A DNA stretch of 24,010 nt from a virus. Under the pieces are notes generated by a model, which saw only the letters and a list, made by a program, of their open reading frames with translations, had not been told where the DNA came from and did no database searches. How positions within the stretch are numbered: the stretch's first letter is position 1; every line of letters begins with the position of its first letter. Shown here one piece after another: positions 1,083 through 24,010 of this stretch. The translations under genes were made by a program, and so were the position numbers. The stretch is taken from the IMG/VR virus record IMGVR_UViG_3300021135_000043, positions 1 to 24,010 of that record. One strand, written 5' to 3'.

Positions 1083-1991
1083 ATGAAACATCAGAAAGGA
1101 AAATATAAAACATACAAAGATATGTTAAAAGAATTACCAAAAATTGGTAAACTACAAATTTTAGAATTTTCCCACAAAAATAAGTGGGGGAATGTGTATC
1201 TCAAATCACAATGTGATTGCGGGAATATTTCAATAACAGATTTCTCATCTTTAAATATAGGAAAAACACTTTCCTGCGGATGTCATCAAAGAGAAAAAGT
1301 TAAGGAAACAGGACTTAAAAATAGAAAATATTGTGTCAATATTGATAGATTAATAGACAACTCAGAAACAGCGTATATTGCTGGATTACTTGGAGCAGAT
1401 GGTTATAAATGTAAAAGTGGAATTGGAATTAGTTTAGTTGAAAGTGATAGTTATTTATTATTAGAGATAATTAACTACCTAGAATTTAATGGTAAATTAA
1501 TGTTTGTTAATAAAAGTAAAATAAACCCAAACTGGCAAGACGCATATAGATTCACTATTTCTGATGCAGACTTCATAAAATTTTTTAACGATAGAGGGAT
1601 TATCACAAATAAAACTTATGCTTATATAATACCAGAAATGTATCAATATAATTCTGATTTTTGGCGTGGAATGATTGATGGGGATGGTTGTTTATTTAAT
1701 TATAAATATAAAACAACAAATAAAAAATATACCTATAAATATGTGGGTATTGGTTTGATAGGAACACTAAATTGTATAGAGAAATTTAAACAATATTGTG
1801 AATTTATATGTAATAAAAAATTAAATATTAAAATTTACAAAAATAAAAAATGCAAAGATATTTATACATTTCATCTAGTTGGTATAAAGGCAGTTCCTGT
1901 GCTAGATTCTTTGTATGGAAATTTAACAAATAATATGTATTTAAAAAGAAAATATGAAAAATATAAAGAAATTACTACAGATCTAAAATGA
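1083..1991 (+). CDS. LAGLIDADG homing endonuclease with N-terminal zinc-binding module
   Basis: This 302-residue protein has two LAGLIDADG motifs in one chain: YIAGLLGADG (98-107) and FWRGMIDGDG (193-202). That is the monomeric, pseudosymmetric form that binds long asymmetric DNA sites and cuts with the acidic residue ending each motif. Before them is a four-Cys module, C44-x-C46 and C65-x-C67 (CDCG and SCGC), of the type often fused to HNH and AP2-type homing endonucleases as a DNA-binding add-on. It is free-standing: no intron core motifs flank it, and it carries its own promoter. It ends seven bases before the next gene. The pairing of the Cys module with a LAGLIDADG body is less usual than with HNH. 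Confidence 0.85.
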   Translation: MKHQKGKYKTYKDMLKELPKIGKLQILEFSHKNKWGNVYLKSQCDCGNISITDFSSLNIGKTLSCGCHQREKVKETGLKNRKYCVNIDRLIDNSETAYIAGLLGADGYKCKSGIGISLVESDSYLLLEIINYLEFNGKLMFVNKSKINPNWQDAYRFTISDADFIKFFNDRGIITNKTYAYIIPEMYQYNSDFWRGMIDGDGCLFNYKYKTTNKKYTYKYVGIGLIGTLNCIEKFKQYCEFICNKKLNIKIYKNKKCKDIYTFHLVGIKAVPVLDSLYGNLTNNMYLKRKYEKYKEITTDLK

Positions 1992-8996: not shown

Positions 8997-9512
8997 ATGG
9001 CTTATAAGAATTTTGAAGATCAGCAAAAACATCATCGTGAATATTACGAAAAGAACAAAGTAAAAATATTAGCACAAGAAAAACAAAATAGAAAAGATAA
9101 GTTTGATGCATTATCTGAAGATGAAAAAAAAGAATTTTTAAAAAAAAGATGTGAAATGCAGTTAAAATCATATCATAAACATAAACATGAGAATAAAGAA
9201 GCTAAAAAAGAAAGAGCTTTTAAATCACAATTAAAATATTTTTATGGTATAACACTCGAAGAATATTATATTTTTTTAAAAAATCAAGATAATAAGTGTG
9301 CAATTTGTGGTTGTGCTGAATATGAAAAACGATGGACTTCTGCAAAATTACCGTTTGCTGTAGATCACGATCATGAAACTAAGATTATTAGGGGACTTTT
9401 ATGTGATAACTGTAATGTAATGATTGGTCATGCGCATGAAAATATAGAAATTTTAAAAAATGCAATAAAATATTTAGAATATGGAAAAAACAAATGCTCG
9501 GAGGTACAATAA
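8997..9512 (+). CDS. Endonuclease VII-type HNH endonuclease, likely homing endonuclease
   Basis: The 171 residues fall into two parts. Residues 1-75 are very basic and helical with short repeated YYEKNK-like units, a likely DNA-binding region. Residues about 76-163 form a recombination endonuclease VII (His-Me finger) domain: FYGITLEEY, CAIC (C101, C104), the catalytic DHDH (123-126), GLLCDNCN (C136, C139, N140) holding the zinc, and the closing helix ILKNAIKYLEYG. T4 endonuclease VII resolves branched DNA. Here the protein sits within a split metabolic gene, so a free-standing homing endonuclease is more likely. Its last 32 bases overlap the restored gene at 9481. A degenerate promoter (TTTG at 8944, N20, TATATTGT) may precede it. 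Confidence 0.8.
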   Translation: MAYKNFEDQQKHHREYYEKNKVKILAQEKQNRKDKFDALSEDEKKEFLKKRCEMQLKSYHKHKHENKEAKKERAFKSQLKYFYGITLEEYYIFLKNQDNKCAICGCAEYEKRWTSAKLPFAVDHDHETKIIRGLLCDNCNVMIGHAHENIEILKNAIKYLEYGKNKCSEVQ

Positions 9513-9831
9513 AGATAAAATAATGTTATCATTAATACCAACTGAATTAATAGAAGAAGTTGGTAAAGTAATGACTTATGGCGCATTAAAATACACTATT
9601 TATAATGAAGATGGTAGTATAAAATCAGATGGAAAAAATAACTGGAGATCTGGATTACCTTGGATGTCCGTTATAGATTCGTTAGAAAGGCATTTATTAG
9701 CCTTTAAAAAGGGTGAAAATGTTGATAAGGAGTCAAATTTACTTCATTTATCTCATGCGGCTACTAATTTAGCATTTCTTCTAAATTATTATTATAAAAA
9801 ACCAGAATTTGATGACAGAACTAGAGATTAA
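9481..9831 (+). CDS. dATP/dGTP diphosphohydrolase-like protein (DUF5664-type)
   Basis: This 116-residue protein matches the pattern of the phage dATP/dGTP diphosphohydrolase N-terminal family. The landmarks, in order, are RRYNKDKIMLSLIP (7-20), VMTYGALKY (30-38), KNNWRSG (52-58), SLERHLLAFKKGE (67-79) and VDKES followed by LHLSHAATNLAFLL (81-101). Such proteins lower or reshape purine dNTP pools during infection. The N-terminus is coded within the 3' end of the HNH gene, which supplies a new ATG and the codons for MEKTNARRYN; the original start survives upstream at 8899. The end overlaps the MazG-like gene, so the two may work as a pair. Confidence 0.7.
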   Translation: MEKTNARRYNKDKIMLSLIPTELIEEVGKVMTYGALKYTIYNEDGSIKSDGKNNWRSGLPWMSVIDSLERHLLAFKKGENVDKESNLLHLSHAATNLAFLLNYYYKKPEFDDRTRD

Positions 9832-10105
9832 AGCATTACAAATTGCTAATAAATATGTAGGACATTATAGTAAAGAAGAGAAAATTAAAAAACTCGGAGA
9901 AGAAATAATAGAACTTGCATATGCATTAGCAAAAAATGATGAAGAAAATATAGAAGAAGAGATAGGCGATTGTATATTTTTATTATTAGATATTGCTACT
10001 ACAAATACAATGCAAATGGGTTTAGACTACTATGTAAATCTTGCCGCAGAAAAAATGGAAAAAAGACAAGGCACTAAAATTTCAAAACAAGTCGGCAAAT
10101 TATGA
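9812..10105 (+). CDS. MazG-like nucleotide pyrophosphohydrolase
   Basis: This encodes 97 residues from ATG 9812 (a TTG just before it, 9809, is in frame but less likely). It shows the all-alpha MazG signature: LGEEIIELAYAL (E30, E31, E34), then IEEEIGDCIFLLLD (E50 and D53), the four acidic positions that bind the metal ions needed to cleave NTPs to NMP and pyrophosphate. It overlaps the diphosphohydrolase-like gene by 20 bases and is itself overlapped by the next ATG. MazG proteins are common in phages, where they are thought to affect nucleotide pools or (p)ppGpp. MazZ of 2-aminoadenine phages is also in this family, but no purZ-like gene is seen here. Confidence 0.8.
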   Translation: MTELEIKALQIANKYVGHYSKEEKIKKLGEEIIELAYALAKNDEENIEEEIGDCIFLLLDIATTNTMQMGLDYYVNLAAEKMEKRQGTKISKQVGKL

Positions 10106-11977: not shown

Positions 11978-12391
11978 TTAGTGTTTAAAAATTACTATCA
12001 TTGAATCGTGTTTACCTTTTGCTGTTTCAGTATATTCTCCCTTTGTATTATAACCTTTAAATGCAACTCTGCCTTTTAAAAATCTAACTTCTGCATTTGG
12101 TAAAATTAAATTATGAAATTGTTTTGTAGAAGTTGCAACAGGAAGTAATAATACGCAGGTTTTTCCTTTTTGCCATTCTTCATAAGCTTTTTGTATAAAT
12201 TTAGGTTTATCTGTTCTATTATATGGTGGATTTATATAATTTGATTTTCCCCATTCGGCAACTAAACCATCAAATTCTGCATGTAAAGGGCAGGGGTCAA
12301 AATCAAAATGAAATTCGTTATCTAATTCTTTGTATAAATAATCAGGTGTTGCCCAATTATCATTATTTTCTAAACCATCTCTATTTATCAT
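11978..12391 (-). CDS. DNA N6-adenine methyltransferase, phage Dam type
   Basis: This 137-residue protein matches the phage-type DNA N6-adenine methyltransferase family. NDNWATPDYLYKEL (10-23) opens it, FDFDPCP (29-35) forms the cofactor-binding strand, and INPPYN (53-58) is the catalytic (D/N)PPY motif IV. LLLPVATSTKQFH and FLKGRVAF follow as in the family, with the end forming the last strands. It transfers a methyl group from S-adenosylmethionine to adenine. No partner endonuclease is nearby, so it is a solitary methylase, most simply used to hide phage DNA from host restriction. It has a private promoter whose -7 box ends four bases before the ATG, so the mRNA is probably leaderless. Confidence 0.88.
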   Translation of the reverse strand: MINRDGLENNDNWATPDYLYKELDNEFHFDFDPCPLHAEFDGLVAEWGKSNYINPPYNRTDKPKFIQKAYEEWQKGKTCVLLLPVATSTKQFHNLILPNAEVRFLKGRVAFKGYNTKGEYTETAKGKHDSMIVIFKH

Positions 12392-12531: not shown

Positions 12532-12849
12532 TTAACAGTATCGTAAATATTCTCTCCACCAACAATCATTTGGTGAATTGGGATATTTTTTAGTCATTAT
12601 AAGTGAATTTGCCTGAACTACTAATGGTTTTGAATAAGGTACAACTCTATAGAAAAAACGATTGCCCTCTGGAAATTTACAATTTGTTTTTCCAGCAGGA
12701 ACTACGGGGGTAGGGAGTAATTCTACCATATTACATGGATCATTACAAGGAAGAGCAACATTATTAGTATACCCCATTTGTGTACCAGGAATTGGTTCGT
12801 GATCCGCATTAATTTTTGCGAAATATCGCAGACATTCATTATTAGCCAT
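12532..12849 (-). CDS. Small Cys/Pro-rich protein of the late module, unknown
   Basis: This 105-residue protein starts MANNECLRYFAKINADHEPI. It has six Cys residues, many Pro residues (LPTPVVPAGK) and a Trp-Trp pair near the end (DCWWREYLRYC). It appears to be all-beta without a signal peptide or membrane segment. It lies at the end of the late block, so a small virion or decoration protein is plausible but unproven. Its ATG overlaps the last 8 bases of the GIY-YIG gene upstream, which probably inserted directly in front of it. It is followed by the strong terminator. Confidence 0.6.
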   Translation of the reverse strand: MANNECLRYFAKINADHEPIPGTQMGYTNNVALPCNDPCNMVELLPTPVVPAGKTNCKFPEGNRFFYRVVPYSKPLVVQANSLIMTKKYPNSPNDCWWREYLRYC

Positions 12850-13663
12850 TTGTTATATCTTTATATTTAAAATAATATTTTTTAAAAACTTTTTTATGAT
12901 CTCTAACACCTTTTTTAACGGCACTATACCCAATTCCAAGTTCTACTGAAGCTTCTAATAATGAATCCCATTCTCTAATAAAATTCATTTCTAAATCATA
13001 TTGTAAAACTTTTCGTTTTTGACTATTCTTTCTTGGGATTACTAGTTCACCATTATATTCAGATTTATATTTAAATAAAGAATTTGCAGCATAGATAGCA
13101 GCCCCTCTTAAACAATTAGAAACCTGATATGTATTTAATTCTCTATTTGCATCAGCAATAGATTTAAACTCTTTTATAAAATTGCCTTCTTTGTCAAATT
13201 GAAGAATTTCTTTTGAAACATCATATCTTTTTCTTCCAATATTAGCTTGTCTAGTTTTTTCAATAGCTGACTGTGGCATCTTTTTTCCTAAAAACGCTTT
13301 TCTTAATTTTTCTTTTGATTCGGGTGTATGAATGGGTCTACCACATTTTTGTCCAACTGGTCCTGTAGTGGCAATATTATAACCTCGTTCTGAATTATGT
13401 GAATCTAATAAATTAGACCAATAATTCTCTTGACTATATAAAAATTGTTCTTCGCATTCTTCTAAAATTTCAAATTCAAAGTTAGATTCCCCATATTTAT
13501 TATAGACATATTGCAAATAAGGATTATGATGTTTATTTGCTCTTAACATAACTTTATGTGTGGTTATTCGTTGTTGTAATGATAAACTTAAACCAACATA
13601 AATTTTATGATCTATTTTACTAAATATAGTATAAATACCTGGTATATGGTTCTTATATGGCAA
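12842..13663 (-). CDS. GIY-YIG/NUMOD homing endonuclease (I-TevI-like, free-standing)
   Basis: This 273-residue protein has the full modular build of a GIY-YIG homing endonuclease. The nuclease domain carries GIYTIFS (9-15), KIYVG (20-24), R32 and catalytic E79 (QENYW). A linker with a NUMOD3-type motif follows (about 113-146, TPESKEKLRKAFLGKK). Then come two NUMOD1-type DNA-binding repeats, about 151-198 (ILQFDKEGNFIKEFKSIADA) and 217-268 (VLQYDLEMNFIREWDSLLEA). The start must be TTG at 13663, because a TAG lies directly upstream in frame and no early ATG exists. Promoter signals are weak (TAATTTTG at 13677-13670 without a matching upstream box; TTTG-N20-TATATTAT further up). No intron core surrounds it. 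Confidence 0.85.
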   Translation of the reverse strand: MPYKNHIPGIYTIFSKIDHKIYVGLSLSLQQRITTHKVMLRANKHHNPYLQYVYNKYGESNFEFEILEECEEQFLYSQENYWSNLLDSHNSERGYNIATTGPVGQKCGRPIHTPESKEKLRKAFLGKKMPQSAIEKTRQANIGRKRYDVSKEILQFDKEGNFIKEFKSIADANRELNTYQVSNCLRGAAIYAANSLFKYKSEYNGELVIPRKNSQKRKVLQYDLEMNFIREWDSLLEASVELGIGYSAVKKGVRDHKKVFKKYYFKYKDITNG

Positions 13664-14485: not shown

Positions 14486-14767
14486 TTAGTATTTCCAAGT
14501 AATTGCCTTAACTGCTAGCATTTGTGCTTCTAAAGCTCTCATTTTTGCAGCTTCCCAAATACTATTTAAAGTATCTTGACCTCCAAGTGATACTTTTGTA
14601 TTGCGATTGGCATTATCTATTTCATTCATAAAATTTGCAGCAGATTGTTTTACTCTATCTACATCTGAATCGTTTGACGGATTAAAGGTAGTTCCTGCTA
14701 ATTTTTCTCCAAAAGACCATGTTGGTGTACCTAATGTTTCGGTAGTATTATCTGTGATTTTACTCAT
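14486..14767 (-). CDS. Acb2/Tad1-hairpin-like protein (DUF7681 type), candidate anti-CBASS sponge
   Basis: The 93 residues fit the outline of small helical phage proteins in the Acb2/Tad1-hairpin family. TTFNPSNDSDVDRVKQSA (26-43) is the F-N-P-S entry and first helix. A second helix ends AALE-type, reading RALEAQMLAVKAITWKY (77-93), where relatives show E-(D/E)-A-x-M-W-A-x-x-A-(I/V). Acb2 forms a hexamer that soaks up cyclic di- and trinucleotides made by host CBASS enzymes. It is expressed from the late promoter at 15255-15286 and is followed by a terminator. The match is by pattern memory only, and the ligand-contacting residues of characterised Acb2 cannot be confirmed here. A small structural protein is the alternative. 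Confidence 0.5.
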   Translation of the reverse strand: MSKITDNTTETLGTPTWSFGEKLAGTTFNPSNDSDVDRVKQSAANFMNEIDNANRNTKVSLGGQDTLNSIWEAAKMRALEAQMLAVKAITWKY

Positions 14768-15292: not shown

Positions 15293-18200
15293 TTAGAAAT
15301 ACTGAACATTTTGGTATTTAATATTCCAGTCTTTTCTAAAATCTGCATTTAAAAGAGCCATTATATCTTCTATTTGTCTTGTACCGGGTAAAAATTTTAA
15401 AGTCTGTTTTAATGGCATTGCTTTTTGTATAGTTGCATCATCCCCTGTTATTTCTCCTTGTATTTCTTGTTCTAAATCTGAAATAAGCTTCATTAAATCT
15501 GTTAGGGTTCCTATTGCAGGAACAGAGTTAGAAAACATTTGTACAAATTCTCGAGGGTCATAGTAAAAACTTAACTCGTTAAAAAATGATTTAAAGTACT
15601 TTGCCATATATGCACGTCTAGCTTTTTCATCTTCATCAGCATCTTTATCAGGTTTAATTAACAAAGCTAAAATAAATATGCCTACTGTAAGCATTAACTC
15701 TTTTGCATAAGATTGAATTGTATTAACATATTGATGAAAATATTCATCTTTATCCATATCAAATGTCTTTCCGGGATTATTTTTTTCGTAATCTTGTTTT
15801 TTCTTTTGGTAAGAATCATCTGCAGCATCTTTAACATTTGGTGCAAATCTATCCCCTCCTAACATACCAAACAATATTGTTGCACTTGATCTTGTGTGAG
15901 TAAATAATTGTCCAAGCAATCTCCATCTACCTTCAATAAATGTATTTTGTGCAGGGATAAATCTCATTTTCTTAAGACGAGCATTCAATTGCCCAGGTAT
16001 CCAACCACGATAAGTAAATAACAAACGTGTTTTATTATTAGTATTGGCACCCATTGGATCATCACTATTTTTTGCTCCAATAATTCTATTAGACATATCC
16101 TTTACTTGACGTTGTTGTAAAGTTCTATTAGATTGTAAACCATTTATTGGAGTAGTCATGTCTACTTTTTTCCCATCTTTATATTCCCAATATGGATGTT
16201 TATTTTCGTCAAACTTTACAGTTGCCCATAAAGATTGTGTTTTAGAAATTTTTTCTACTTCTGAATCTATATTTTTAGCAGAAATATCTTTTCTAGTTCT
16301 AAGTAAATGTTGTTTAATATTTACTCGTTTACCATTATCATCTAACATAGAACCCATTGCTTCTGCAATATTACATAATTCTTGAATACCTTCATCTGTA
16401 AAGTGCATTCCAAACAATAAAGTTCTTGAAAATGACGGTACTAATTTTTTACCTGCCGCTTTCTTTTGTAATTCTCGATCTCTAGAATCTTCGGTATGTG
16501 GTTGAAAATATTCACTAAGCATTTTTTTCTTTTCGCTATTTTTTATTACTTCCGATATTGCTCTGCTACCTAATTTTTCACCATACTGTTGCATGTAAAA
16601 GTTACTCAATCCACCAAATAAGTTAGAAAGAGTAGATTTAATAGAAAGAGCTAATCCACGAACAACAGTAAAGGATGCAATCTCATTTAGTAATTTATCA
16701 CCTGATAAATTTTTATCTGCTAATTGCAATGCACGAGAAATAAAATTATTCCAAACTTTTATTGTACTATCATTTCCTTGTGTTTTACCATATAAAGAAT
16801 AATCTATTATATCTTGCATAAATTTAGCATTAGTAGTATTTTCTACTGCTGTATCACTAACTTTACCTCTTTTAAGTCGAGGAAACATTTTTTTATTTTT
16901 TTCAGCTAAAAGCAACAAATTTACATCGGGGATAACTTTAGTTAGTTCTTCATATTTTGCTAATGCAGAAGCAAAAATTTCATAACATAGTCCAATATCA
17001 ACACTTTGTCTTTCTTGATTTCCCATTATACCTAATCCCATAACAGAAACTTCAAGATTGGGATTACCAGAAAGAGGGTCTAAATCTCCTTTAGATTCTT
17101 TTTCAGCATCTGTTATTGTTATTGCGTCTGCCATTCGACCTACAAATTTATTAAGACCTTCTTTAGAACCTTGTTGCCAAGCCTGAGAAAAATTAGTTTC
17201 AATAAAAGGAAAATGGGTGTAGGCTTCCCATTCTTTAAGTAAACCATTTTCTACAGCTATAAAATTTAATTTTAAACAATCTCGATATAGTTTTAATAAA
17301 TCAGGATTTTTTTCTATTTCACGATAATCTTCTGAAAACCATTTTTCTTTAGGAATTAAATATTTATTTCCTCTTTGCCCATGTAATAATGCACCTACAT
17401 TTGAAAAATCATCATTTGTATCAAATTGTTGTTTAAATTCTTCTATTGCTTGTTGCTTTTCAGATTCTGTATTGTCTCCTAAAGAAATAAGTTTATTAAA
17501 TTTTTCTTCTAGATTTTGCAAATCTTTATTAAATCTATCTCGGTTAAATATAGTATTATCAATAAACCATTGTTTTCCTTCAGGTAAATTTGTACCTGCA
17601 GCTACAATTGCATTAACATCTCTTTCTTTAAAGAAATCAGAATTTATTGTGTGCCTCCATTTATATATACCTTGAGAATTTTTTGCAATTAGTTTTGAAG
17701 TGTAGATATCAAATATTTTATCTTTATATTTCTTTTTTAGTGTTTCTGCATCAACTATTATTGGTTTAGTATATTCTTCCCTTTTTAATTCTGATTTTGC
17801 CTCTGATTCATGAATAAGTTGTAAAGCAGTCATTAAATTAACTTTATCAACTTGGCTAGACAAAGTTAAGTTTCTATCTCCAAAAGCTAATTCTACTTCT
17901 GGTTTACTTACATCTACATTAAATCCTGCTTTATCTGCTAATTCTTGCGCTACTTGCGTTGAATATTGAATAATTTCTTTCATTACAGTAGTTACTAATC
18001 TATGTGCCTTATCAAAATGATAAAGTCTATCTTGAGTAATCTGTTTATCTTCTTTAAGAAACTGCCTATCTTCTTCAGTTAGATTAGGATCAACTAACAT
18101 CTTATCTAAATCCTTTAGTTGATTTTCACCATCTTTTATTCTTTGTTCTATAAACCCGCTAGAAGTTTGATATATTTTTAATCTTTCTAAAGATTTAGTT

Positions 18201-21088
18201 AAGTCAACCGATTTATCTTTGTTTTTTATTACATTTCTAATAGTTTCTAATTCTTTAAGGATTATATTAGTCATTGAACTAACATCTTTTCTAAAAGTAA
18301 CATCAAATAAGGCTTGTTCTAGTCTAGACGCGTTTATAGTAGCGATTTGTATATCTGCATCATCACCTTTTGATTTTGCTTGAAGAGTTTGTTTTATAAC
18401 TTTATCTATATCATTACGATATGTTTGAATATCTTGGTCATCTGATTCTGCATAATGGATTACTACAGGCTGCAGATACATTTTTTGTGGATCAATTGCA
18501 CCAAATGAAAATGGAGAAATTTCAATATTTTCTAAAGTAAGTGCATCTCCTTTGCCATCAGCATTATAATTTCTTTTACCTAAAAGATTCATAGGAAGCA
18601 TTACATCTACTCTTCTATCAGATAATCCATAAGAACTCTTGAGAATATCTGAAAGAGAATTTGATTGTTCTCGAAAATATCCTTTAGTTACTTGGTCTAT
18701 TCTGCCTTTTGCTGATAGATTATATTTACCCTTCCAGTCATATTTATCGTAAGAATTATCAGGATAAAGAACTAATAAATCAATAGTTCCAGGCATACCT
18801 TTGCCTGCATCAGAAAGTTCATTTACTACTTTGCATTCTGGTAAAATTTTTAGACCTGCAATATTTTTTTGCCTGTAAAAATCTATTACTTGATTAGCAA
18901 ATGATCGTAACTGTGAAAATATATGTTCAGGAGTATTTTTTTCTAAATTATCTTTAGCTATAGGAGATATTTCATGATTTGCGTTTAAATACCTTTTAAA
19001 TTCGTTTTCTAAGTCTTTATGTACTTGAGTACCTCTATCCGCAATACTTAGATTAAAATCTTTATCTTCCTCTTTAGGATTGAATTTTTTATCAATTCTT
19101 GTAGTAACTGAAGGGCCTAAATCTCTTTTTACTCCGTTTTTAGTTATAGTGTAAATATGCCTTCTCTGTCCTGTTTTTGCATCAGTGCTTTCATCAAGAT
19201 CTAATTCTGATTGAGATTTAATTAATTTATCATATACTGTTTCTGCAGGAGTTCTAACTGGTTCTGAAGTAAATGCAGTTAGATTAGAAGGTTGCCAAGT
19301 CCCGGCACCAAAAGATTGGTTAGAATCTTGAATAGGATTTACATATTGATTAGATTGTGTAGTACTTGTTATATTAACCGAATGTCTTTGAGTAAATGTT
19401 ATTGTTCCTAAATCTTGATGTGGGATTGCAAGAATATTAGAATATTTAGGCACTGTTTGAGTTGCCCATTTGTTTATACTATCAGCAAATCTTTTTACAT
19501 CCTCACCTGTTTTAGTTGCAAATACTCTACCTGAAGTATCATTTCTAGCAGGGCGTAATCCATTAAATGTTTTACCTTTTTTTAATGATTCTAATGCTTT
19601 TTCAAATGGGACTTTTGGCTCTAAAGTTGCAAGTTGCTTTTCTTGTTCTTCTTTTATAATTGAACCAAAACTTTCATATAAATCATCTAAAATAGATGGT
19701 TGTTTTGCATTTAATAATTCTAAAACACTACTTAGAAAATCTTTAAATAAATTTACTATTCTTTGAAAAATAGAAGGGATATTTTTAAGTCTATTTATAA
19801 ATGAACCATTAGAAAATGCTTCTGAAATAAATTCTTTTGCATTATCAAATCCATATTTATTACCCCAACCTTCTTCTTGTGCAGTTTGCTTTGCTTTTTC
19901 ATATATTTTATATATGTTATGCATTACTTTTATTTGCCTAGAATTTAAAGTAATATTAGTTTCTAATGTTTTTGTATCTAAACCTTCTGCCTTTTCAGGA
20001 AAAAGTTTTAGATATGCATTCATAAAATTATCAGAAACAAGATGCATTATTTCATGAACAAGAATATGACTTTTGTTTTTCTGTTCTTCATCTTTATTTA
20101 AATGCATTGTAATAGTTTTATCTTGTGGATTATAAACACCCCCACTTGATTCTATTTTGCCATCTGTATATTTTTTTATATCGTCGTAAGATCTAAATCC
20201 TTGAATATCTTTTAAAAGACCATTTACACTTAATATTTTAACTAATTTACCTAAAGGAGAATCTGAATTTTTTAAATCTGCAATTCTTTTTCTAAACTCC
20301 TCTAAACCTTCTCCAGCATTAGCCATTTCTAATTGTCCTGAAGAATATGGGTTATTTCTCGCAACTTTTTCAGACGGTAATAATTCTTGTTGTTCTAAAT
20401 TAAATTGTCTAATAGTCTGAAAAGGTTTAAGTGCTGCATCTTCAGTTTTTTCGTGTAGATAAATTTCTGAAGAAAATGTACCATAGTTTTCTTGAAGTGA
20501 AGTTAAAGCTTTAATTCCATCTCCATGAAACAAGATACCACTATCTTTTCCTATATTTCTAAATTTTTGAATCTCAGGTATAAAGGTATTAAACCAAGAA
20601 TTAAATGATTCTCCTTCTTTTGGAGTCTCGTTAGGATGTTCTAAATAATATTTAGTATCAAACGCATCTTCATTTTTACCAATTGCCGTACCCCTATTCC
20701 AAGTTCTTAAATTAGAATTAGGTATAATATTTAATTCAGGATTATATTTCTTATATATTTCACAAGTTTGAACTGATCTTGGTGCATCACTACATATTAT
20801 AGTTTTTAATCTTTGTATTTCTGGAGTTAGCGCATTTTTTTCAGATTCCGCAACTCCTTCTTTAGAAAGACCTTCTCCTATTGGGCCTGACATTTTATCT
20901 TGTAGATCAAAAGGTGTCTCTGCATGGTGCAAAATATTTAAGACTTTAGACTGCAACAGTTTATTAGCTTGGTCTAATGTAGGAATTTTATCTCCGTTCA
21001 TATGCCAAACACTTAGAGTTGCAATTTCTCCAAGAGATTTTTCTAATTCCTTATATTCTTCATTTTTTACTGGGCAACTATTTGGCAT
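15293..21088 (-). CDS. Giant multi-enzyme virion/cargo protein: histidine phosphatase-like, zinc peptidase, PD-(D/E)XK nuclease
   Basis: This 1931-residue protein lies one base after the RNA polymerase-like gene. Residues 48-200 resemble a histidine phosphatase (phosphoglycerate mutase fold): LHHAET (53-58; canonical RHGE-T, Arg replaced by His), SDAPRSVQT (100-108) and LFHGDG (186-191). Residues 300-430 hold a zinc peptidase, HEIMH (345-349), with E423 in KEFISEAFSNG as likely third ligand. Residues 680-800 hold a RecB-type PD-(D/E)XK nuclease: RGTQVH (685-690), E751, GTIDLLV (D770) and YDWKGK (D784, K786). A long helical region follows, then a membrane segment (about 1795-1811, ELMLTVGIFILALLI). 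This is the build of phage 'polyvalent' proteins and of crAss-like cargo proteins, packaged in the virion and released into the cell. Confidence 0.8.
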   Translation of the reverse strand: MPNSCPVKNEEYKELEKSLGEIATLSVWHMNGDKIPTLDQANKLLQSKVLNILHHAETPFDLQDKMSGPIGEGLSKEGVAESEKNALTPEIQRLKTIICSDAPRSVQTCEIYKKYNPELNIIPNSNLRTWNRGTAIGKNEDAFDTKYYLEHPNETPKEGESFNSWFNTFIPEIQKFRNIGKDSGILFHGDGIKALTSLQENYGTFSSEIYLHEKTEDAALKPFQTIRQFNLEQQELLPSEKVARNNPYSSGQLEMANAGEGLEEFRKRIADLKNSDSPLGKLVKILSVNGLLKDIQGFRSYDDIKKYTDGKIESSGGVYNPQDKTITMHLNKDEEQKNKSHILVHEIMHLVSDNFMNAYLKLFPEKAEGLDTKTLETNITLNSRQIKVMHNIYKIYEKAKQTAQEEGWGNKYGFDNAKEFISEAFSNGSFINRLKNIPSIFQRIVNLFKDFLSSVLELLNAKQPSILDDLYESFGSIIKEEQEKQLATLEPKVPFEKALESLKKGKTFNGLRPARNDTSGRVFATKTGEDVKRFADSINKWATQTVPKYSNILAIPHQDLGTITFTQRHSVNITSTTQSNQYVNPIQDSNQSFGAGTWQPSNLTAFTSEPVRTPAETVYDKLIKSQSELDLDESTDAKTGQRRHIYTITKNGVKRDLGPSVTTRIDKKFNPKEEDKDFNLSIADRGTQVHKDLENEFKRYLNANHEISPIAKDNLEKNTPEHIFSQLRSFANQVIDFYRQKNIAGLKILPECKVVNELSDAGKGMPGTIDLLVLYPDNSYDKYDWKGKYNLSAKGRIDQVTKGYFREQSNSLSDILKSSYGLSDRRVDVMLPMNLLGKRNYNADGKGDALTLENIEISPFSFGAIDPQKMYLQPVVIHYAESDDQDIQTYRNDIDKVIKQTLQAKSKGDDADIQIATINASRLEQALFDVTFRKDVSSMTNIILKELETIRNVIKNKDKSVDLTKSLERLKIYQTSSGFIEQRIKDGENQLKDLDKMLVDPNLTEEDRQFLKEDKQITQDRLYHFDKAHRLVTTVMKEIIQYSTQVAQELADKAGFNVDVSKPEVELAFGDRNLTLSSQVDKVNLMTALQLIHESEAKSELKREEYTKPIIVDAETLKKKYKDKIFDIYTSKLIAKNSQGIYKWRHTINSDFFKERDVNAIVAAGTNLPEGKQWFIDNTIFNRDRFNKDLQNLEEKFNKLISLGDNTESEKQQAIEEFKQQFDTNDDFSNVGALLHGQRGNKYLIPKEKWFSEDYREIEKNPDLLKLYRDCLKLNFIAVENGLLKEWEAYTHFPFIETNFSQAWQQGSKEGLNKFVGRMADAITITDAEKESKGDLDPLSGNPNLEVSVMGLGIMGNQERQSVDIGLCYEIFASALAKYEELTKVIPDVNLLLLAEKNKKMFPRLKRGKVSDTAVENTTNAKFMQDIIDYSLYGKTQGNDSTIKVWNNFISRALQLADKNLSGDKLLNEIASFTVVRGLALSIKSTLSNLFGGLSNFYMQQYGEKLGSRAISEVIKNSEKKKMLSEYFQPHTEDSRDRELQKKAAGKKLVPSFSRTLLFGMHFTDEGIQELCNIAEAMGSMLDDNGKRVNIKQHLLRTRKDISAKNIDSEVEKISKTQSLWATVKFDENKHPYWEYKDGKKVDMTTPINGLQSNRTLQQRQVKDMSNRIIGAKNSDDPMGANTNNKTRLLFTYRGWIPGQLNARLKKMRFIPAQNTFIEGRWRLLGQLFTHTRSSATILFGMLGGDRFAPNVKDAADDSYQKKKQDYEKNNPGKTFDMDKDEYFHQYVNTIQSYAKELMLTVGIFILALLIKPDKDADEDEKARRAYMAKYFKSFFNELSFYYDPREFVQMFSNSVPAIGTLTDLMKLISDLEQEIQGEITGDDATIQKAMPLKQTLKFLPGTRQIEDIMALLNADFRKDWNIKYQNVQYF

Positions 21089-21089
21089 A

Positions 21090-24010
21090 TTATAAACATT
21101 TTATTGCATCAAGAATTTCAGAATCTTTTGCATTTGTTGATTTCATTACTTTATATAACTCTTGTGATTTCTCTAATTTTTCAGACGGAATATTGTTTTC
21201 CTGAGCAAATTTATTAAATATTTCTAAATCGTGTGCAGCACCTTGTTCTTCCATGTCCTCATCTGTTAAATTATTTCTATTATTTAAATAATCTATATCT
21301 TCTTGTGGAAGATTTGTATAATGGTCTGGCAAAGATACACTATTTTTTTCATTTGACCTAAAAATACCTTGATCTCGTAGATAATTATCTATTTGGGGTT
21401 GAGTTAAAGGTACAGGTATGTTTTCAGGGTGAATAGATTTTTCTAAGTCTTGAGGTGCAACTTCTACGTGATAACCTCTTTTACCGAGAACAGTAATTCT
21501 TTTGTAATAAACTCTATCAGGATGATTTACATTATCTAATCTTTCATATAAGAATGGTTTGCTTAAAATTTGTTTTCCACGCTCGTCTGTTTGATATATT
21601 TGATTAAAATCATTATCAAATTGCCCCTCTAATTCTAAAGGTATTCTTCGTTGAATATATTTATTATTTGTTATATCATCATCTTGACTTAGACTTATTA
21701 GATTTATATCTATTTCATTTTTTACTTGGTATTCTGCATCAATATTTTTTGTAAATTGATTTTGTCCCATCACAGGAACACTTGTAAAATCATGAGTATT
21801 GTTTTGAATAATTTGTTTTCGGATATGTTCTGGAGTTATACCTAATTGATCTAAATTAAAGTGTGGATTAGATTTAAGTAAGTCTAATAAATGTGCATTT
21901 GCGTCAAGCCAAAGTTGCGCAGGAATATATTTTTGTATAGAATTACGCATATTTTGCCCACCACTCTGAATCAATGAGTAGACAGCAATATTAGAAAAAA
22001 AGTTTCGCAAATCTTGTTTTGCAGGATCTGTTGATTTAAAAGCAACTAAAGCAGAATCTACAATTAGATTAATATCGTGTAAACTATTATTCATTTTATA
22101 AGAACGCATTGAACTTGCAGCATTCTTAGTAGATTGGTTTAATAATGGCTGTATTTTTGAAAGCCAAATATTATCAGGATATTTTCTTCGTAAAGTAGAT
22201 AATTGTAATGGTGTGTTATCTATAAATAATAATCTCGATGCTTTTGCAAATTGTGAATCTCCATTTTCATCTGGAATAACCTGCAAAAGATAATTAGTTA
22301 AGAAGTTACAATCTCTATTTATACTTTTTATTTTGTCGTCCTTTGTTACGTATTTATCAGGATTATCGTGAAAATTGATAATCTCGTTTATAATAGGTTC
22401 TAATCTTGCATCTCGTGAAGTAAAAAATTTAGAAGCAAATTCTTGAGAAACTAAATCTACTGAATCTTTAATAGGTCCAACAAAAGTTTTTTCAAATATT
22501 GCATCAGGATTTTCAAACATTCCTGATTTTGCTATTTGTTCTCCGTATCTACTCAATAAGGCATACTCACCAAAAGAACCTATGTTTGCAGTATCTCTGT
22601 TTATATTTTGGTTTAAAGTAAAAGTTTGTTGTGCTTGTTGTTGTAATTGCAAAAAGTGTACTAAAAATATTGCTTGATCTTTTTTCAAAGCATCTAAAGA
22701 TTCAAAATTAGTCTGAAGATGTTTTTCTAATTGATTTAAGGATTGTTCTGGAAATTTATTAAACGCATCCATTAAACTTGCCCAAAAGATTTTTTTATCT
22801 TTTCTTTTGGTGTAATTAGTCATTGGATTTTTACTATTCCAATACTTTGAAGCTAATTCTAATGCAATCCCTGAACGAAATTTTCTTTCACCCATAAGTT
22901 TATTCTGCATTGAATTATCTTCCCCCCACATTTGTTGGAATTCTTTTATTATTGGAAGATTTAAGAATAAGAATGTATAAGCATTTGGTACACCTAATTC
23001 AGTTAAATAAGCATAAATTGCTGCAGTATTTCGATTAATACCTGTATTCTTAATATCATTACTCTTTACTATTTCAAGGTTGGCTTGTATTACACTTGTA
23101 AATTTTTGTCCGGTATTTATACCTTGAGTATCAGTTTCACCTCCAAAGAATTCTTTGCCTTCTTCCGTTTTATTAGTAGGAAAAATTCTTTTAATAGAAG
23201 TTTTATTTAATCCTAATCCATAAGATTCTTTTTTATTTGAACCGTAAAGAAAATATAAATCTTTTGCATTAAAAGTACCTGTTAGATAAATAGGTGCAAT
23301 ATTACACATTACGTGCATAGTACAGGCTCTTGCCAATACTCCTATATTATCCTTATAATCTAAGTAGGATTTACGTAATTTTTCAGATGCAACCATTTGA
23401 GAAATAGCTGTATTATCTGTTTCTATTTGTGAAAGTCTTTGTAAATTATTTATTTTTTGAGAAAACGCAGGTATATCACCAAGGGTAATAGGAGTCATCA
23501 TTGAAGTATATCCTTGGGGAGCTTCAAGTAATTTCCATTGCAAATCTAAAATTTTATTAGATAAACCATCTACAGAATCTTCTTCTGAATCTATAGGTTC
23601 TAAAACTACATTTTCTTTGTATTTTTGATTATATTCTTGTATTCCTTGTTTAATATGAGTAAAGAATTTTAAATAATCTTCACCTAATACATTTCCTAAT
23701 CCTTCGATTGAACCTGCCTCGTTATCATATTTTTCTGCAGCACGTTCTGTCCAGTTAGCATGATTAAGTTTCTTAAATCCATTTTCATCTAACTTATTAA
23801 ATTCTGCTTCAGGATTTACATAATTAAGTTTTTCTAAATGTGCCAACATAAATTTCTTAAATTGCTCAGAACCAAAATCAGTACGAACAACTCTTGAATT
23901 ATAGAATCCTATATAGTCCTTATCACCATCAAAGTCCTTATCCATTCTACCTACTTCAGAAGAAGTTACAGTAGCTATTTGACCTCGTTCTGGGCCGTAC
24001 ATTCCTATTC
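21090..24010 (-). CDS. Virion RNA polymerase-like protein, DFDGD type (5' end outside window)
   Basis: The frame is open to the right edge; codons continue upstream of the ATG at 24002, so about 972 C-terminal residues are seen. GRMDKDFDGDKDYIGFY (DFDGD at 23936-23922) is the metal-binding motif of two-barrel RNA polymerases, in the form found in crAss-like phages, where the three Asp residues hold catalytic Mg. Downstream, YTSMMTPITLGDIP and KDNIGVLARACTMHVM resemble the bridge region that follows this motif. The remaining ~650 residues are helical and Asn/Gln-rich, with no further motif I know. In crAss-like phages this polymerase is packaged and transcribes early genes after entry. The N-terminal barrel must lie beyond the window. 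Confidence 0.75.
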   Translation of the reverse strand, partial: IGMYGPERGQIATVTSSEVGRMDKDFDGDKDYIGFYNSRVVRTDFGSEQFKKFMLAHLEKLNYVNPEAEFNKLDENGFKKLNHANWTERAAEKYDNEAGSIEGLGNVLGEDYLKFFTHIKQGIQEYNQKYKENVVLEPIDSEEDSVDGLSNKILDLQWKLLEAPQGYTSMMTPITLGDIPAFSQKINNLQRLSQIETDNTAISQMVASEKLRKSYLDYKDNIGVLARACTMHVMCNIAPIYLTGTFNAKDLYFLYGSNKKESYGLGLNKTSIKRIFPTNKTEEGKEFFGGETDTQGINTGQKFTSVIQANLEIVKSNDIKNTGINRNTAAIYAYLTELGVPNAYTFLFLNLPIIKEFQQMWGEDNSMQNKLMGERKFRSGIALELASKYWNSKNPMTNYTKRKDKKIFWASLMDAFNKFPEQSLNQLEKHLQTNFESLDALKKDQAIFLVHFLQLQQQAQQTFTLNQNINRDTANIGSFGEYALLSRYGEQIAKSGMFENPDAIFEKTFVGPIKDSVDLVSQEFASKFFTSRDARLEPIINEIINFHDNPDKYVTKDDKIKSINRDCNFLTNYLLQVIPDENGDSQFAKASRLLFIDNTPLQLSTLRRKYPDNIWLSKIQPLLNQSTKNAASSMRSYKMNNSLHDINLIVDSALVAFKSTDPAKQDLRNFFSNIAVYSLIQSGGQNMRNSIQKYIPAQLWLDANAHLLDLLKSNPHFNLDQLGITPEHIRKQIIQNNTHDFTSVPVMGQNQFTKNIDAEYQVKNEIDINLISLSQDDDITNNKYIQRRIPLELEGQFDNDFNQIYQTDERGKQILSKPFLYERLDNVNHPDRVYYKRITVLGKRGYHVEVAPQDLEKSIHPENIPVPLTQPQIDNYLRDQGIFRSNEKNSVSLPDHYTNLPQEDIDYLNNRNNLTDEDMEEQGAAHDLEIFNKFAQENNIPSEKLEKSQELYKVMKSTNAKDSEILDAIKCL

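Follow-up and report, generated by a model that had tools for sequence, protein, structure and literature searches.

What is a histidine phosphatase doing inside a giant phage protein, and can it still work as one? The question is raised by a 24,010-base viral contig (hereafter the window, a complete IMG/VR viral record) in which one open reading frame encodes 1931 residues. A first-pass annotation made from the letters had read this frame as a virion-type giant protein carrying a histidine phosphatase, an HExxH peptidase, a RecB-type nuclease and a membrane segment. Its domain calls and its virion-type guess were borne out. The Crassvirales transcription cassette around the gene was overlooked, as were a second active-site change (Thr129), the loss of a zincin histidine in gp49-type relatives and the lineage-specific nature of the phosphatase. 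The features in the list that follows are all on the minus strand of the window.

15293..21088, minus: giant protein, very probably cargo-type, 1931 aa, equivalent to crAss001 gp49 and phi14:2 gp076 (uninterrupted ORF)
20945..21088, minus: conserved N-terminal module, aa 1-48 (sequence comparison with relatives)
20453..20941, minus: histidine-phosphatase-superfamily domain, aa 50-212, lineage-specific insert (PF00300, predicted fold)
20924..20929, minus: His54, in the place of the RHG Arg, and His55, nucleophile position (motif, comparison set)
20777..20779, minus: Arg104, second phosphate-pocket Arg position of SDxxR, kept (motif, comparison set)
20702..20704, minus: Thr129, in the column holding the acid Glu in 55/79 comparison proteins (comparison set)
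20525..20527, minus: His188, second catalytic His position, kept (motif, comparison set)
19679..20413, minus: zincin-like metallopeptidase region, aa 226-470 (motif, homologues)
20042..20056, minus: HEIMH zinc-binding motif, aa 345-349 (motif, homologues)
19832..19834, minus: Glu419, probable third zinc ligand, also kept in degenerate gp49 copies (alignment)
18449..19180, minus: PD-(D/E)XK (RecB-type) nuclease domain, aa 637-880, with D770, D784 and K786 (motifs, homologues)
15296..18448, minus: C-terminal part, aa 881-1931, homologous to the body of gp49-type proteins (sequence matches)
15656..15712, minus: single hydrophobic segment, aa 1793-1811 (sequence)
21090..24002, minus: C-terminal half of a crAss-type virion RNA polymerase, cut by the contig end (homology)
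23922..23936, minus: DFDGD, the DxDxD catalytic motif of the RNA polymerase (motif)

Genome context

The RNA polymerase reading frame lies upstream of the giant gene and ends 1 nt before its start codon. The part present in the window begins near DFDGD, a site at which crAss001 gp50 has DFDVD. A RecA search of IMG/VR returned one relative, a 134-kb contig whose RecA is 82% identical and whose 2985-aa polymerase is 25% identical to that of the window over 902 aa. The window and this contig are syntenic. The terminase (2e-25) and portal (2e-14) of the contig match those of cr108_1, a member of the Crassvirales, and its primase and helicase do so too. The synteny and these matches indicate that the window represents part of the genome of a distant crAss-like phage. 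The giant protein is 25% identical to its counterpart in the relative vs 57–82% for several neighbouring products, so the protein as a whole diverges fast. Scans of viral contigs for peptide patterns of RecA, of the C-terminal pair, of the RNA polymerase pair and of a conserved replication-side protein each recovered only the 134-kb relative. Patterns from the giant protein, from its C-terminus and from the gp49 alignment recovered no further relatives in these contigs.

Several other genes of the window were noted in passing. A GIY-YIG homing endonuclease with NUMOD1 repeats lies at 12842-13663 (minus strand), an HNH-type endonuclease at 1083-1991 (plus strand), and a Dam-type N6-adenine methyltransferase (PF05869, 3.9e-18), which is not among the matches to the relative, at 11978-12391 (minus strand). 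A 93-aa frame at 14486-14767 (minus strand) scores 15 bits against an Acb2/Tad1 hairpin profile whose cut-off is 27, a weak lead. Two frames at 9481-10105 (plus strand), encoding 116 and 98 aa, take the place of a single 284-aa frame of the relative, the beginning of which matches the first of the two; the gene may be split or frameshifted here. For the giant protein, nothing relevant emerged from PADLOC, Rfam, tRNA or NCBIfam equivalog searches.

A probable virion cargo protein of the gp49 type

Sequence matches place the giant protein beside a set of crAss-like proteins that follow the virion RNA polymerase. The cr108_1 protein QOR58988 matches it at the N-terminus (3.6e-5), at the C-terminus (8e-11) and weakly over the nuclease (0.016), and also matches crAss001 gp49. 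The direct match between gp49 and the giant protein is marginal. The phi14:2 protein gp076 connects the two, matching gp49 at 3e-32 and the giant protein at the C-terminus (3e-5) and in the region of the zincin Glu (0.001). The hydrophobic stretch that had been read as a membrane segment is the only one in the giant protein and occupies the same place in the homologues examined. We consider the giant protein very probably the last large cargo protein of the crAss transcription block, a member of the gp49-type family.

The gp49 protein of crAss001 was detected in virions by mass spectrometry and has been discussed as cargo ejected from the capsid before the DNA (PMC10172136), and the record of phi14:2 gp076 is annotated as structural by MS/MS. 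These orthologues agree with the earlier virion-type guess, and by analogy with them the giant protein is likely to be present in the virion. A late role within the infected cell, for example as an assembly scaffold or maturation protease that is not injected, is improbable. Its location among late or virion-type genes and the virion-maturation action proposed for zincins of other phages (PMC7824862) would fit such a role; however, the orthologues occur in finished virions and are the very proteins discussed as ejected cargo.

By eye, proteins of the gp49 and gp50 types resemble each other at the N-terminus (20945-21088 in the window, and homologues): they often begin with MxxxC at similar spacing and have Pro-Ser/Thr some 35–55 residues further on. 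The polymerase proteins of several phages also have a Cys within their last residues. An N-terminal signal common to gp49-type and RNA-polymerase-type proteins found no statistical support in our comparisons (E 0.3 or worse).

Metallopeptidase and nuclease regions

The HExxH peptidase recognised earlier corresponds to HEIMH at residues 345-349 together with Glu419. By chance, a protein of this composition would contain about 0.03 HExxH motifs, and the same segment is conserved in homologues, which argues against a chance occurrence. Both HEIMH and Glu419 have aligned counterparts (an HExxH and a Glu that is likewise conserved) in the nearest relative, in the cr116_1 and cr108_1 RNA polymerase proteins, and in a protein from a Helicobacter prophage; phi14:2 gp076 has an identical HEIMH and a similar Glu region. 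Matches to the Helicobacter prophage protein and to N4-like (Presley) sequences cover the zincin region only. The region scores below the Pfam peptidase cut-off (at best 16.6 bits vs 27.4), a cut-off that is the threshold of one profile and does not define the zincin fold.

The first zinc His is lost in crAss001-type copies (EEFAH) and kept in phi14:2. The degenerate form EExxH, with the first zinc His lost and the downstream Glu kept, was observed in crAss001 gp49 (L005:8725-12774), in cr108_1 (L002:15717-20861) and in two further copies (L003:5815-9852, L007:8509-12504). The HExxH of cr108_1 lies instead in its polymerase protein, at 1525.

The RecB-type nuclease called by the first-pass annotation is represented by GTxVHxxxE (686-694), D770 and D784xK786, a set common to cr108_1 and the nearest relative. 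Profile scores are low, with a PHROG exonuclease at 0.0025 in the giant protein and PDDEXK_1 at 0.0013 and 0.02 in homologues, under the cut-off. Both the zincin and the nuclease are putative assignments that rest on motifs and homologues, neither reaching a Pfam cut-off alone. A PDDEXK domain in a crAss transcription protein has been reported before (PMC7886860).

A histidine-phosphatase-like domain inserted in one lineage

In a Pfam search of the 1931-aa protein, PF00300 (His_Phos_1) was the sole family above its cut-off, matching residues 54-196 at E=2.8e-7 (30.9 bits). Residues 45-215 in isolation matched at 6.5e-9 with 36.2 bits vs a cut-off of 21.7, bearing out the histidine phosphatase proposed earlier, and the motifs lie where they had been placed (H54-H55-A-E-T, SD101-xx-R104-S and H188-G-D-G). 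The domain was modelled with AlphaFold2 using 38 Prevotellaceae homologues as alignment rows, giving moderate scores (pLDDT 64.5, pTM 0.63); a single-sequence prediction of residues 1-470 was uninformative (pLDDT 36). Fold comparison of the predicted domain gave 48 PDB matches at E<=0.001, led by family members, and Z values up to 11.9; the top matches among those listed are histidine-phosphatase-superfamily proteins. Named viral structures among the matches are small proteins of two phages or giant-virus proteins. A fold unrelated to phosphoglycerate mutase, which would speak against the assignment, was not obtained, in a model whose alignment rows themselves carry the phosphoglycerate mutase fold. 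The model is partly circular for that reason and is support rather than proof, and the Pfam score is independent, sequence-level evidence for family membership. We regard the superfamily fold as almost certain.

The domain is a lineage-specific insert, judged by comparison with related sequences. It sits between the N-terminal module (residues 1-48) and the zincin. The module is 49% identical in the nearest relative and is present too in cr108_1 and cr109_1. The relative's 2165-aa protein has the module, the zincin (as HEPFH), the nuclease and the C-terminus, and at residues ~50-400 it carries an unrelated segment of ~350 aa in place of the phosphatase; its record gave no PF00300 match. There is no extra domain at this position in cr108_1 or in crAss001 gp49. 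A scan of viral contigs for a Prevotellaceae-type phosphatase found none, and tblastn of phage records with the domain returned weak matches only, two of them from one assembly, on a contig with bacterial metabolic genes. An alignment of four phosphatases gave no usable stretch. Within the sequences and papers searched here, a histidine phosphatase in such a cargo protein appears to be new; the zincin and nuclease are typical of the kind.

As one contig alone carries the segment, an assembly chimera or a chance similarity might be suspected. Either is very hard to reconcile with the PF00300 match at E=6.5e-9, with the single uninterrupted frame, and with homologous sequence flanking the insert on both sides. 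The GC content and codon use of the segment also match those of the rest of the gene, and composition gave no sign of recent transfer.

An atypical active site

The active site was compared with 79 PF00300 proteins, 71 of them obtained via Bacteroidota genomes across the phylum, 5 from Prevotellaceae, 2 from E. coli and 1 labelled Acinetobacter. The earlier observation that the Arg of the RHG motif is replaced by His holds, with His54 here vs Arg in 79/79 comparison proteins, a set drawn mostly from Bacteroidota (the likely host phylum by inference) that may miss rarer variants elsewhere. The nucleophile His and the second Arg are invariant in the same set and are kept here as His55 and Arg104, and the second His of the phosphate pocket is retained as His188. 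In the column of the acid Glu of PhoE and GpmB types the giant protein has Thr129. Glu occupies this column in 55 of the 79 proteins and is absent from the remaining 24, so the acid Glu does not define the superfamily as a whole. Both the RHG Arg and the acid Glu are invariant among 80 Prevotellaceae homologues.

The RHG Arg of this superfamily binds phosphate, and losing it usually cripples activity. For this reason we consider a catalytically active phosphatase to be possible and somewhat doubtful overall, with His54 and Thr129 together making ordinary phosphatase activity doubtful and any activity uncertain. One reading, in line with the first-pass annotation, is that the domain is fully functional as an enzyme and, after injection, removes phosphate from a host protein or a nucleotide signal at an early stage. 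Retention of His55, Arg104 and His188, the natural absence of the acid Glu from 24/79 family members, and the enzymatic character of the other domains found in such proteins agree with that proposal. It is nevertheless unlikely, given an RHG Arg replacement seen in 0/79 comparison proteins, the additional change at the acid Glu, and a context that suggests no substrate. A pseudo-enzyme with no catalytic role, which either recognises a phosphorylated ligand of the host or is simply a folded spacer or packaging element, is a somewhat better candidate that we favour tentatively. It would account for the loss of both the phosphate-pocket Arg and the acid Glu and for the fast divergence of the whole protein, and the homologous zincin of gp49-type relatives has lost its first His, which indicates that loss of activity happens in this protein family. 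However, the nucleophile His, the second Arg and the second His are all kept, a pattern not favoured by drift. With the RHG Arg and the acid Glu both replaced, the domain may be a slow or specialised phosphatase acting through His55, Arg104 and His188, or it may bind a phosphorylated ligand.

Enzyme domains in related RNA polymerase proteins

Comparable enzyme domains occur in the RNA polymerase proteins of other crAss-like phages. That of cr116_1 (L009:10456-17979) contains ART-PolyVal (9.2e-13, aa 248-376) and a zincin with HELIH at 635; it is annotated as hypothetical. In cr126_1 (L182:6163-13371) a NADAR domain (1.7e-13, aa 62-189) directly follows a short N-terminal stretch. The polymerase of the 134-kb relative (L013:6807-15764) has an insert of ~700 aa near its C-terminus (aa ~2185-2900) with an AlkB-like 2OG-Fe(II) oxygenase (PF13532, 3.9e-7, just under the Pfam cut-off) and a DprA-like region (PHROG, 6e-4), an insert that the polymerase of the window lacks.

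Different sequences, or none, at the phosphatase position in other crAss-like phages suggest that these cargo proteins ship exchangeable enzymes. The states compared were the phosphatase, an unrelated segment and an empty position, plus other enzymes in the sister protein, and the notion of an exchangeable slot rests on few comparisons because one close relative was found.

As a separate observation, the polymerase frame is broken at or near the DxDxD motif in cr108_1 (L002:13027-13318), cr116_1 (L009:17979-18820) and bajarodcaudo virus 1 (L006:5123-6018), as if by an intron in the active-site codons. Two of these three have an extra frame in the gap, which in bajarodcaudo virus 1 is an endonuclease.

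Proposed role

From one 24-kb fragment and one close relative, we conclude that the giant protein is probably a polyvalent-type cargo protein that a distant crAss-like phage injects, with an accessory domain open to exchange. It shows features of polyvalent proteins, namely several enzyme domains, a zincin and a virion RNA polymerase as neighbour. The giant protein would be made with the polymerase encoded directly upstream, packed in the virion and, if it behaves as its orthologues, driven into the cell together with the polymerase before the DNA enters. After entry the zincin may cut the polypeptide and free the N-terminal domain, and the nuclease may target nucleic acid, either that of the host or that entering the cell. 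The phosphatase-like domain would be a lineage-specific effector acting on a phosphorylated ligand, and the site that it occupies, after the N-terminal module and before the zincin, would be an exchangeable slot. The proposed cleavage is testable because crAss001-type proteins have lost the first zinc His and phi14:2 has not.

A broader and rather unlikely extension is that the ejected, RNA-polymerase-associated proteins of Crassvirales form a general delivery platform. A conserved N-terminal module would precede an effector that can be exchanged (a phosphatase-like domain here, the NADAR domain in cr126_1, ART in cr116_1), and a zincin would release this effector in the host, each lineage injecting its own counter-defence or take-over enzyme, here one working via an atypical His-His/Arg/His site. 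If exchangeable enzymes are indeed injected at the onset of infection, these cargo proteins would be a ready source of candidate factors for host take-over and counter-defence, and a phosphorylated host target would be indicated by the phosphatase-like domain. Delivery and processing would be directly testable in the phi14:2 and crAss001 isolates, which have the same cassette.

Comparison with known systems

A survey of polyvalent proteins describes zincins and variable effectors in injected proteins, N4 virion polymerases included (Iyer et al. 2017, PMC5512222); the word "phosphatase" is absent from its main text, and a Crassvirales review makes no mention of polyvalent proteins (PMC10136315). 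Like polyvalent proteins, the giant protein unites several enzyme domains in a polypeptide encoded with virion genes, and has a zincin of the kind proposed for processing and accessory domains that vary between phages (PMC5512222). It differs from N4-type virion RNA polymerases fused to a metallopeptidase in that the polymerase here is a separate, crAss-type DxDxD enzyme.

Among gp49-type cargo proteins, crAss001 gp49 (YP_009910789), phi14:2 gp076 (AGO48954) and cr108_1 QOR58988 are all encoded directly after the virion RNA polymerase and share with the giant protein the C-terminal homology, the single hydrophobic segment and a zincin-derived region. The phi14:2 protein resembles it further in its intact HEIMH, and that of cr108_1 in its N-terminal module and nuclease, whereas crAss001 gp49 has EEFAH for HExxH and no recognised nuclease. 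Unlike the giant protein, all three are without a PF00300 match. The nuclease shows no essential difference from the PD-(D/E)XK nucleases of large crAss-like transcription proteins (PMC7886860), and this part was already known. With branch 1 of the histidine phosphatase superfamily (PhoE/CobC/GpmB and SixA types) the inserted domain shares the profile, the predicted fold, His55, Arg104 and His188; it is set apart by His54 for the RHG Arg, by Thr129 at the acid column, and by its setting in a giant virion-type protein.
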